From contig NZ_FUYC01000012.1 of NCBI RefSeq assembly GCF_900167125.1, positions 1 to 64,000 of the forward strand: a stretch of DNA of 64,000 bases, read 5' to 3'. The position numbers and the translations under genes were made by a program. Below are positions 32,124-37,238 of this stretch, piece by piece (position 1 is the stretch's first letter; each line of letters opens with the position of its first letter). The DNA is from Paucidesulfovibrio gracilis DSM 16080. GTDB taxonomy: Bacteria; Desulfobacterota; Desulfovibrionia; Desulfovibrionales; Desulfovibrionaceae. The notes below the pieces were generated by a model. The model had not been told where the DNA came from. It saw nothing but the letters and a program-made list of their open reading frames with translations, and did not search any database.

Positions 32124-33656
<1,533 letters not shown>

Positions 33657-33729
33657 CGCGATCCCTCCAAACGGCTGCGTTCACAGTACTATTAGCTTCG
33701 TCCCCATTGAGGGACGCCCGGGCGCACGG

Positions 33730-33758
33730 AATATTTCAACGCACCCCCGACCCGTCAA
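33730..33758 (-). promoter_or_regulatory. Likely promoter of the ffh operon
   Basis: On the minus strand TTGACG (33758-33753), 17 bases and AATATT (33735-33730) resemble a sigma70 promoter about 75 bases before the ffh start. The -10 match is only moderate. Confidence 0.45.
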
Positions 33759-33823
33759 GGCTGGACAAAGGGACTGTGTGTTAAAGGAGAACGTGCCGCA
33801 AGTCAAGAGCCGTGATTTGCCCC

Positions 33824-33852
33824 TTGACTCCCTTGGCGCACCCGGGTATGAT
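33824..33852 (+). promoter_or_regulatory. Sigma70 promoter of the SAM-riboswitch transcript
   Basis: TTGACT (33824-33829), exactly 17 bases, then TATGAT (33847-33852), near consensus. Transcription would begin near 33859, about 17 bases before the riboswitch P1 stem. Confidence 0.8.
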
Positions 33853-33875
33853 TTTCGGCAGTTCTTTGCCTTTTT

Positions 33876-33967
33876 CATTCAGAGTGGCGAGAGAGATTCG
33901 GCTCCACGACCGCCACGGCAACCTGCCCCTCGGCAAGGTGCCCATGCCGACCCGCAAGGGAACGATG
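33876..33967 (+). promoter_or_regulatory. SAM-I (S-box) riboswitch aptamer
   Basis: The leader matches the SAM-I riboswitch core in order: AGAGTGGC (P2 5' strand) paired with GCCAC, the GAGAGA...CTC..ACGA kink-turn/pseudoknot arm, CGGCAACC, a P3 helix CCTGCC/GGCAAGG, then AAGGTGCC, a CCC-GCAA-GGG P4 helix and GGGAACGATG closing weakly with CATT at 33876. Binding of S-adenosylmethionine should stabilise P1. A near-consensus promoter lies upstream and an intrinsic terminator 27 bases downstream, the standard SAM-off arrangement. The antiterminator partner was not resolved by eye. The gene under its control (34171-34620) is not a known methionine gene. Confidence 0.82.
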
Positions 33968-33993
33968 TGGGGGGATTCACCCCAAATCCAGCC

Positions 33994-34019
33994 ACCTCTC
34001 CTTTTGTGAGAGGTTTTTT
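33994..34019 (+). terminator. Riboswitch-controlled intrinsic terminator
   Basis: ACCTCTC (33994-34000) pairs with GAGAGGT (34008-34014) and is followed by six Ts. It sits between the SAM aptamer and the downstream gene. In the remaining stretch to 34171 there is a 20-codon frame (34063-34125, MKTAACGRFV...) with a poor ribosome site that I do not call as a gene. Confidence 0.85.
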
Positions 34020-34170
34020 GTTTTCGGCGCGCCAGACAGCGCCCGAACACGGGATCGGCAGGATGAAAACGGCAGCCTGTGGGCGATTTGTAGCGATTGC
34101 GGCCCACGGTAAACAACAACGCTAAAGCGCTTGAGGGCGAAGCCGCCCTCCTCGCAAGGAGAACTTCCGC

Positions 34171-34620
34171 ATGACCTTGAAACTGCTGGACCCCGCAAAA
34201 CTGGTGAACACGCGAAGCCAGGCACTGGCGTTTGTGGACACACCCAACGGCAGGGTGCTCTCTTCCGGACCCGTGCGCCCCGTCAGCACGCCGGCCCGAG
34301 CCGGACGCACCGAAAAACCCGTTGTGAGCTTTCGGCTGGCAGCCTCGGACGCCGCCGAGTACCTGATCCGCGTCAACGGCCACGGACCGGCCTACCGTGT
34401 GGCCCGGACTCCGGCGCCCGGACGTCTGGCCCGCCGCGAAATCAATTTGCCCGCGGATCGCCCTGTGCTCCTGCTCCTGGAAGAACCCAGGGAATTTGAA
34501 CCACAGGGACTGCATGCCCTTGCGGAACTGGTGGACGGCCTGGGCCGCCCCCCGATCCTGCACCCGGGAAGCGCGCTGGCCATGGTCGATCCCGAGCCGG
34601 ACGATTCCGCCACGAAATAG
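34171..34620 (+). CDS. Uncharacterised protein downstream of a SAM riboswitch
   Basis: A 149-residue soluble protein with no signal peptide, no membrane segment and no Cys. It begins MTLKLLDPAKLVNTRSQAL and has a central beta-rich part (VVSFRLAASDAAEYLIRVNG) and a Leu-rich RPVLLLLEEPREFEPQGLHALAEL helix. AAGGAG precedes the ATG by nine bases, and codon use is like the neighbours', so it is a real gene. It is the only gene between the SAM riboswitch (with terminator) and the terminator at 34826, so it alone should respond to SAM. I do not recognise the family. Possible roles in methionine or methyl metabolism are guesses from control only. Confidence 0.75.
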   Translation: MTLKLLDPAKLVNTRSQALAFVDTPNGRVLSSGPVRPVSTPARAGRTEKPVVSFRLAASDAAEYLIRVNGHGPAYRVARTPAPGRLARREINLPADRPVLLLLEEPREFEPQGLHALAELVDGLGRPPILHPGSALAMVDPEPDDSATK

Positions 34621-34825
34621 CGGACGGGTTTCGCAGCACCAAGCAACCGCGCCAGACAACGGCACAGGTTGATTCCCATGGTCGAATGTCCCAGCAAGAT
34701 GCGCTACCGGCCCTCGCGCTGCAACGCATCGGCGGGATTGCCGTTTGAGCCAAGGCTTTGGACCGCGGCTCCGGGACACCCGGCATTTTTTCCTCCATTA
34801 TACCGTTTCACCTTCACCCCATAGG

Positions 34826-34863
34826 ATGGGGCGGCCCCCCCAAAGGGACCGCCCCATGTTTTT
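34826..34863 (+). terminator. Terminator of the SAM-riboswitch gene
   Basis: ATGGGGCGG (34826-34834) pairs perfectly with CCGCCCCAT (34849-34857) and is followed by GTTTTT. The rest of the 359-base gap to the MCP stop holds no gene or repeat I can support. Confidence 0.88.
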
Positions 34864-34979
34864 CGGCGTCCGCTCCCGGCGGCGCCATGCCGTTCGCTTA
34901 GGAGACAGGCCGTCGTGCCCGAACGACCCGCCCGCGAACAGCGATTCCCTCGCGCCCTTCCCGGGCGCCCTCTTGACCG

Positions 34980-37238
34980 CTAATAGCGGCCAAATTCATC
35001 GTCATCCAAGGAGATGATCTCCTCGGGATTCACTGTATCCGTATCGACGCGGGAACCCGGCTCCGACTTGGGCGCGGCAGGCTTGGCCGCTTCCGCGCCC
35101 CAGATGCCGTTGGAAGCATCCCGGCTCCCCTGGCTCTGCTTGTTCCCCGACCCGGCCGCAGGCGCGGGCTTGGGCCGCGCTGTGCCGCCCTGACCACCGG
35201 AAGGGGGCAGGGACTGCGTCGGCCGCGCTGGCCTGACGCTCATCTTGCGCGGTGCGCCCTGTCCGGGCCGACCGTCGCCGGCCAGATGGAACTGCCCCAC
35301 CAGTCGCCGCATTTCCACGGCCTGGCTGGAAAGCTCCTCTGCCGCGGATGCGGTTTCCTCCGCGTTGGCGGTATTTTGCTGGGTGACCTGATCAATCTGG
35401 CTCAAACCCTGGTTGATCTGGGTCACGCCCTTGGCCTGCTCATCGCTGGCCGCGGCGATTTCCGCCACGATATCCGCCACAGTGGTGATTTTTTCCACAA
35501 TCTGCTGCAACGACTGCGCGGTTTGCGTGGCGATCTCGCTTCCGCTGCCCACCTTGGCCACGGACCCTTCGATGAGCTGGGCGGTTTCCTGTGCGGCTTT
35601 GGCGCTGCGCGAGGCCAGGTTGCGCACTTCCTCGGCAACCACGGCAAAGCCCTTGCCGTGCTTCCCGGCCCGGGCCGCTTCCACGGCCGCGTTCAGCGCC
35701 AGCAGATTGGTCTGGAAGGCGATCTCATCGATGACCTTAATAATTTTGCTGATGGCCTGGCTGGATTCGTTGATATCCTCCATGGCCGAAACCATGCTTC
35801 CCATTTCCCGATCCCCGGTCTGTGCCGCGTCACGCGCCTCGGAAGCCAGCCGACTGGCCTGGGACGCGTTGTCCGCGTTGGTCCGGGTCTGGGAACTGAT
35901 CTCAGTGATGGAACTGGTGATCTCCTCCAGGGAGGACGCCTGTTCCGTAGCACCCTGGGAAAGCGCCTGGCTGGATTCGGACACCTGGCCGGATCCGTCC
36001 TGCACCTGGGCCGCGGCCGTGCCGATCTGCCCGATGATTTCATTGAGACGGCGCACCATGGTATCCAGCGCCCGCCCCAGCCGGTCCTTGTCCGAGCTGA
36101 CGTCCACCCGGCGAGCCAGCTCACCCTGGGCAATGGCCTGGGCCAAGTCAGCCCTGGCGCGCTGAGCATCCACCATGGCCTGGAAACCACGGGCCAAATC
36201 CCCCATCTCGTCACGCTGCCGCAAACGATTTTCCGGCACGTCCTCGTCCACGTTGCCCTGGGCCAATTCCTTGAGGTAGTCCACGCATTCCCTGAGGACC
36301 GTGGTAATCTTGCCCACGGCATAAAAAACCACGAGCGCCACCAGCAGCAAGGTTACCAGGCCGCCCAGCAAGGCCAGATTGCGCACCTGCACCAGCGGAG
36401 CCATTATTTCGCCCAGAGGCGCGGTCACAGCAACGATCCAGCCGGAAATCGGCACTTCGTTGTAGCCCATGATCTTCCACTGGTTTTGTTGCTCGAACCA
36501 ATATTTGTAGGAGCCGTTCTTTTCCCGCAATGCTGCCTTGCCGTACTCCGTGTCCGCGACATTCAGCTCCAGAATAAAACTGCGGTCCGGGTGGCCGATG
36601 ACCGTGCCTGTCGAATCAAGCACAAAGGCGTATCCGGTCTTGCCGATCTTGACCTGCTCCGTAAATATCGACGTCATGCGGTCAATCTTGATTACTCCGC
36701 CCAGCACACCGAGAACTTCGCCGCTCTCGGAACGCACCGGCACAGCAATGACGAAAATGGGATTGCCGGACACCTTGCTCCGCAACGGCGGGGAAAGAGC
36801 GATCTGACCGTTTTTGGCGGTTTGAAAATACTCGCGGCTCCCCAACTCCAGCCCGATACGCTCCGGATCACCGGACGAAATCACGGTCCCGGTCATGTCC
36901 ATCAGGTTCACGGACTCGTAATAGTCGAAATCCGTAACCTTGCCCGCAAGGTTGTTCATGGAGTTTTGCACTCCATTGAAACGCCCCTGCAAGGCGGCCG
37001 CGTGATCCCTATTCCTGGCCCAGTTGCGCAGATCGCTCTCCCGCCCCTGGATCCAATCCTGCATGGATCGGGACGCGGCCTCGGCCTCGCGCACGATACC
37101 GGACCGAATCTCCTCTTCCAGCAGTGTTGCCGATTGGGAGTAGACGAAAAACACCAGCCCCATGATCCCCAAAAAAACCATGCTGAGGATCGGAACCAGC
37201 AGCTTTCCTCGAACCTTCAGCCGAATGGACATTTTCAT
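34980..37238 (-). CDS. Methyl-accepting chemotaxis protein with Cache sensor
   Basis: A 752-residue transmembrane chemoreceptor. An N-terminal helix (about 12-33) and a second near 305-330 flank a periplasmic double-Cache-type domain ([21 protein letters not shown] and [19 protein letters not shown]). HAMP follows, then a long coiled-coil signalling domain with the CheA/CheW hairpin tip [26 protein letters not shown] and [16 protein letters not shown]. The C-terminus has a Pro/Gly/Ala-rich linker and an acidic end [14 protein letters not shown], without the CheR pentapeptide. AGGGAGAG precedes the ATG at 37238. No che genes are adjacent. Confidence 0.94.

Follow-up and report, generated by a model that had tools for sequence, protein, structure and literature searches.

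A SAM-I riboswitch followed by a SAM-II-type aptamer ahead of an orphan gene in Paucidesulfovibrio gracilis

Tandem SAM riboswitches are known from a 2022 survey, whose passages describe SAM-II/SAM-V pairs, SAM-II with SAM-I/IV in both orders, and doublets of SAM-I and of SAM-II (PMC9481103); a SAM-I/SAM-II pair is not among the arrangements that the passages of this large survey list (PMC9481103). A 2025 survey of contiguous riboswitches merges the SAM classes into one family, and its main text holds no word starting with Desulf (PMC12452182). Across titles, abstract beginnings and passages of the published literature, we found no SAM-I/SAM-II tandem. In Oleidesulfovibrio alaskensis G20, the only SAM-I of the genome is reported to precede the hypothetical gene RS11395 (PMC11124144). 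Here we describe a leader of Paucidesulfovibrio gracilis DSM 16080 within a stretch of 64,000 nt of contig NZ_FUYC01000012.1 (the window), which resembles that of O. alaskensis G20 in that a sole SAM-I precedes a gene without assigned function, but differs in carrying a second aptamer, none being reported for O. alaskensis G20 in the passages of that paper (PMC11124144). Within this literature, a Desulfovibrio relative is already known to have SAM-I before a hypothetical gene, and the order of SAM-I followed by a SAM-II-type element is apparently new.

The SAM-I leader and gene A

The first part of the leader, the gene and its downstream hairpin comprise the following features.

33824–33852, plus strand: sigma-70-type promoter TTGACT-17-TATGAT (consensus scan, 10/12 matches; conserved in congeners)
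33872–33971, plus strand: SAM-I (S-box) aptamer (RF00162, 53.5 bits, E 1.7e-9)
33994–34014, with a T-rich tail to 34024, plus strand: stem of the intrinsic terminator of the SAM-I riboswitch (terminator scan; congeners)
34171–34620, plus strand: orphan gene of family A, 149 aa (open reading frame, relatives, dN/dS)
34826–34857, with a T-run to 34863, plus strand: terminator-like hairpin 3' of gene A (read directly)

A reading of this DNA made from the letters alone, hereafter the sequence-only reading, had proposed a promoter TTGACT-N17-TATGAT, an S-box aptamer, an intrinsic terminator behind it and a 149-residue gene, and each of these is borne out. We find two promoter-like sites on both strands of 33600–35100 against 0.3 expected, and at the corresponding place both congeners carry TTGAC[TG] and TATG[AC]T with the same 17-nt spacer (counted by eye). 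The RF00162 match is full-length (model positions 1–108), lies above the gathering score (53.5 against 44.4 bits) and is the sole Rfam match at gathering threshold across the 64-kb window. Additionally, no other SAM-I was found in the 3.18-Mb genome assembly, and the aptamer is present in all three genomes of the genus. Its AGAG, GGCAACC and AAGGUGC agree with the RF00162 consensus, an agreement by motif and not position by position in the regions altered in the spermidine variant of SAM-I, which are J1/2 and the P3 internal loop in the passages describing it (PMC10853860), and the aptamer presumably binds SAM.

Terminator-like sites number six against 1.8 expected in the scan of the leader region, and the stem and T-run of the SAM-I terminator are kept in both congeners. 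A SAM-I aptamer with a terminator directly downstream is the classical transcriptional OFF design. The SAM-I leader folds no better than its shuffles (z −1.06), and folding yielded no clear antiterminator; a simple antiterminator was considered and rejected, the best terminator-free fold instead pairing GAGAG of the aptamer with CUCUC of the terminator.

The dN/dS values of gene A in three pairs (0.36, 0.16 and 0.31) indicate purifying selection and thus a real protein gene, which is conserved throughout the genus: it has matches in 3 of the 99 genomes searched, namely the three of its own genus with P. gracilis counted. A scan of GTDB r220 genome contigs returned one relative, in Desulfovibrio sp. 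isolate STF2_139, and a search for plasmid relatives found none, either of A or of one protein of family B (described below). Profile searches place protein A in no Pfam, NCBIfam or PHROGs family and find no PDB relative (best E 1.4), in agreement with the earlier statement that it matches no known methionine, cysteine or SAM gene. Neither outcome that the sequence-only reading had named as refuting it was seen, namely a lack of any covariance-model hit at 33876–33967 or a protein of a known methionine-pathway family. AlphaFold2 models of protein A reached a mean pLDDT of 49.3 from the single sequence and 36.1 from two, values too low to support a fold search. The flanking genes, ffh and a chemotaxis receptor, both lie on the opposite strand, so that the unit appears monocistronic. 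The second terminator that had been proposed behind the gene stands in part: its hairpin and T-run can be read directly, but the terminator scan does not list it, and both congeners have a hairpin at the site without a comparable T-run.

A SAM-II-type element before the start codon

The sequence-only reading was right in placing a SAM-I before a gene of no known family but saw the leader incompletely, for it holds two aptamers of different SAM classes. The second, of SAM-II type, lies on the same strand between the SAM-I terminator and the gene and had been missed; it was first spotted, as a conserved block 3' of the terminator and 5' of the start codon, when leaders of relatives were compared by eye.

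34069–34146, plus strand: span of the RF00521 match (27.6 bits, E 1.3e-4 on a 221-nt stretch)
34076–34137, plus strand: SAM-II-type aptamer (RF00521 below cut-off, model R2, covariation)
34077–34084/34102–34109, plus strand: P1 of this aptamer
34085–34089 GATTT, 34097–34100 TTGC and 34121–34125 GCTAA, plus strand: its core, aligned by RF00521
34092–34095/34128–34131, plus strand: its possible pseudoknot
34133–34161, plus strand: possible expression platform, as read directly
34156–34161, plus strand: Shine-Dalgarno sequence AAGGAG (sequence; AAGGAG in both congeners)

Because its score in the window does not reach the RF00521 gathering score (27.6 against 36 bits), we call the element SAM-II-type and do not assign it to RF00521. 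No other site of the genome matches RF00521 as well (E 4.3e-4, the runner-up having 0.56), and a search of the window with a loose core pattern gives one occurrence, where Markov sequences lead to an expectation of 0.03 per strand. Among the relatives scanned with RF00521, some elements of genus g8 reach E<10 (17.5–20.8 bits) and those of genera g21 and g38 do not. We used two models of our own: the matches of R1 include rows from which R1 was built, whereas R2 leaves the own genus out, having been built from 18 elements of g8, g21 and g38 only. R2 matches the window with 32.7 bits (E 6.3e-7), and it also matches both elements of G619, a distant genome of another family (24.1 and 19.4 bits). 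The GATTT/TTGC/GCTAA pattern with which elements were gathered had been drawn by eye from leaders including that of the window; since the motif served as search pattern, the invariance of the core in the alignments is in part a product of selection, and the independence of R2 is incomplete.

Covariation was scored on alignment A5, which holds 20 of the 24 distinct elements from four genera (omitted were three that are almost identical and one carrying an insert; two were trimmed). P1 scores 0.501, whereas shuffles give 0.138 ± 0.030 with 0/500 as high, and both-sided changes occur in 6/8 pairs; P1 pairings slid out of register score at most 0.125. The paired cells of P1 are likewise above all 500 shuffles. 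Upon removal of the own genus, the score is 0.356 against 0.138 (0/500 shuffles as high), and the four double-change pairs in P1 are then no better than shuffles (274/500). Furthermore, an alignment of the three genomes of the genus shows both aptamers conserved and gaps in the linker that separates them. The possible pseudoknot has 3–4 bp in the own genus and likewise in g21 and g38, but in g8 it is weak or missing; ten elements were compared, of which those of the window and g38 have 4 bp, those of G001 and two from g21 have 3 bp, and that of G009 has none. Overall, the element has P1 and the GAUUU/UUGC/GCUAA core in common with RF00521 SAM-II (SAM_alpha) and is unlike the curated family in its score below cut-off and its short pseudoknot; from the sequence, it would be expected to bind SAM.

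Downstream, a hairpin at 34133–34139/34144–34150 is mutually exclusive with an anti-Shine-Dalgarno hairpin at 34148–34151/34158–34161. Both competing pairings are possible in all three genomes of the genus (paired by eye), and the first (34133–34150) appears in the computed fold. The two SAM-class aptamers share one leader with no promoter-like site between them, a consensus scan of this strand finding none from SAM-I to the gene, and on the same strand a scan showed nothing resembling a terminator from the second aptamer to the start codon. The distance from GCTAA to the start codon is 45 nt in the window, 33–66 in g21, 70–116 in most g8 leaders and 152–154 in g38; in one g8 genome (G379) it is only 19 nt with GGAG between, which fits translational control. 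With distances of 19–154 nt, no single translational mechanism suits all leaders. In a SAM-II leader of S. meliloti, the Shine-Dalgarno sequence is described as serving a start codon that lies 74 nt further downstream (PMC9373788), which means that a longer spacer need not defeat a translational reading. A pairing of GCUAA with the first codons was rejected, being seen in two g21 leaders and absent from the other leaders folded.

These data also bear on an unlikely alternative, in which only SAM-I senses SAM and the downstream element is a structured RNA for another ligand (for example SAH) or a stabiliser of the mRNA. In its favour are the sub-threshold RF00521 score in the window, the weak pseudoknot in g8 and the distance of roughly 150 nt that separates element and start codon in g38. 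However, R2, made from family elements, recognises two G619 elements that pass the RF00521 cut-off, and the SAM-II core is kept in the window as aligned by RF00521, its invariance among relatives being partly by selection.

Distribution of the double leader among relatives

RF00162 finds 49 sites in 44 of 288 genomes of the family, and the downstream genes are A at 3 sites, B at 35, metX at 4, panC at 5 and an ADP-ribosylglycohydrolase at 2 (names profile-checked for one or two representatives per kind, the others by eye). SAM-I thus precedes an orphan small protein at 38/49 sites; the A sites are all in the own genus, and the B sites are divided among g8 (17), g21 (10) and g38 (8). The second aptamer is present in 37/38 of the A and B leaders versus 0/11 of the other SAM-I loci of the family. 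Both aptamers occur in 3/3 genomes with A; for B, the SAM-I core lies upstream of 35/35 genes and the motif of the second aptamer in 34/35, the one leader without it being that of G022. A first pattern found the element in 28/30 B leaders; a third class of spacing (locus L057) was noticed by eye, and the count of 34/35 comes from a wider pattern. R1 recovers 34 elements at E below 1e-9, the three of A included, and three partial ones, which are those with an inserted loop. At E below 1, it has no match in the 11 other family SAM-I loci or in 30 SAM-I loci of other families; whenever more than 40 genomes were searched with RF00162 or R1, the filters were stricter, and weak matches are lost by them. 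The computations support the existence and order of the two aptamers, the terminator, the conservation of these elements and the association with orphan genes. Scans of Rfam based on cut-offs miss the tandem, the second aptamer being below cut-off in the family leaders scanned.

Proteins of family B are about 90 aa long and were found once each in 31 of 297 relatives searched, plus 4 further g8 genomes. Five members scanned gave no Pfam or NCBIfam family above chance, and matches to the PDB are at chance level (best E 0.22). Between A and B, hhalign gave no match, and among A, B and the protein C of G619 blastp gave no meaningful match from one family to another. A and B are small protein families whose sole known property is a leader expected to be OFF at plentiful SAM. 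Among the representatives compared, the B locus is syntenic between g21 and g38, with MurJ on one side and a HAD hydrolase on the other, and not in g8, so gene and leader may have moved together. If RS11395 belongs to family B, O. alaskensis G20, a laboratory sulfate reducer with the single SAM-I described in the passages cited (PMC11124144), offers a test system. The conservation of both families speaks to another account, in which the terminated leader is the main product and acts in trans as a small RNA, the small ORF mattering little. Leader-derived small RNAs are known from passages on Sinorhizobium SAM-II leaders (PMC9373788), but the substitutions in A are those of a protein under selection and B is conserved at the protein level in the 31/297 genomes, so we regard this account as very improbable.

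Several further loci were noted. Weak solitary R1 matches with no adjoining SAM-I occur at L138 (G366), L139 (G144), L140 (G104) and L141 (G007), with E from 1.6e-4 to 0.009, and are either chance or divergent elements. In G100, SAM-I stands before an ADP-ribosylglycohydrolase-like gene in two near-identical copies near contig ends (C11 L128 and C17 L129), an unusual S-box target. SAM-I also precedes panC (pantoate-beta-alanine ligase) at L021, L022, L026, L028 and L130 (profile-checked at L026, by eye at the others); at L028, metK follows panC, an arrangement that would tie a vitamin B5 gene to control by SAM.

When a phylum sample of 395 genomes was searched with R1, 8 genomes yielded 9 matches with E no greater than 0.01, one of them that of the window. 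Five of the eight other matches were scanned with Rfam: two, both in G619, pass the RF00521 cut-off, and the remaining three showed no SAM riboswitch.

G619:C1 4288000–4296500 and 219500–228500: tandem loci L150 and L151, both models above cut-off

Each SAM-II of G619 lies directly behind a SAM-I, in the order and strand seen in the window (RF00162 63.2 and RF00521 37.9 bits; RF00162 54.2 and RF00521 38.6 bits). Each tandem precedes an orphan gene C of 270–299 aa, which belongs to no Pfam family (both copies) and no NCBIfam or PHROGs family (one copy), and behind one C comes metK. In a phylum sample centred on G619, 65/395 genomes have SAM-I, which makes the tandem much the rarer of the two. 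The succession of tandem, orphan gene and metK in G619 favours a role in SAM homeostasis.

A probable two-level switch and its relation to known systems

The sequence-only reading had offered two explanations for the gene, a new SAM or methionine function or the replacement of the original target, and each has some evidence in its favour. The first draws on the unrelated A and B behind the same double leader and on the G619 double leader followed by an orphan and metK. The second holds that an ancestral SAM-I by ffh controlled metX, that metX was lost and that the unrelated neighbour A came under the old leader. In four g21 genomes (L023, L131, L132 and L133), a SAM-I with ffh close by does precede metX, with an aminotransferase between, whereas here the gene behind the SAM-I by ffh is A, and a search of the three genomes of the genus revealed no metX. 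However, the metX leaders are without the second aptamer, A and both aptamers are kept in 3/3 genomes of the genus with A under purifying selection, and a tree of SAM-I aptamers (33/49 sites) puts that of A beside those of B and not of metX, with a weak support of 0.68; we hold such a leftover locus to be decidedly improbable.

We instead prefer, with a probability of about 0.68, the reading of the leader as two SAM riboswitches from different classes in tandem, which together form a two-level OFF switch and restrict the protein to times of SAM shortage. With ample SAM, the SAM-I aptamer would fold and the terminator at 33994–34020 would halt most transcription; transcripts that read through would carry the SAM-II-type aptamer at 34076–34137, and SAM bound to it would lower translation from the Shine-Dalgarno sequence at 34156–34161. 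SAM binding by both aptamers and the action of the second on translation are inferred in this scheme. The 149-aa protein would then be made mainly under SAM scarcity and would most likely help to restore SAM or methionine supply; it may act in the DUF39 homocysteine route, in the synthesis of SAM or in uptake. The DUF39 homocysteine pathway has been shown genetically in Desulfovibrio vulgaris, according to the passages cited (PMC5764234), and a DUF39 homocysteine protein is present in 16/16 genomes tested. A link of DUF39/HcyBio to A or B was rejected as not specific, the protein also occurring in genomes without A or B. A search for metX found none in 8/9 genomes (three of the own genus, two of g8, two of g38, and G057) and detected it in the ninth, G022; metX is also present in G135, G171 and G198.

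More tentatively, SAM-I plus the SAM-II-type element might be a portable two-stage OFF cassette, with A, B and C as functionally equivalent effectors of SAM starvation in an undescribed arm of methionine/SAM homeostasis. This doubtful generalisation would cover at least three proteins without detectable homology, A here, B in three other genera and C in G619 (once before metK), and its hosts would be bacteria with the DUF39 homocysteine route, many of them without metX. Repression at what appear to be two levels points to a factor of SAM metabolism that is costly or potent, and the tandem before unrelated small genes hints at undescribed proteins needed when SAM is short.

The finding adds the order of SAM-I followed by a SAM-II-type aptamer to the known arrangements of SAM riboswitches. 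The passages of the 2022 survey give two examples of SAM-I/IV then SAM-II, which are similar in having a SAM-I-like aptamer first and SAM-II second; SAM-I/IV is a distinct class, whereas the first aptamer of the window is a plain SAM-I (RF00162) (PMC9481103). The SAM-II/SAM-V tandem of Candidatus Pelagibacter, as described there, likewise joins two SAM classes, the first with a terminator and the second near the ribosome binding site (PMC9481103). Its order is SAM-II then SAM-V, whereas here SAM-I is followed by a SAM-II-type element, in relatives of Desulfovibrio and ahead of orphan genes (PMC9481103).
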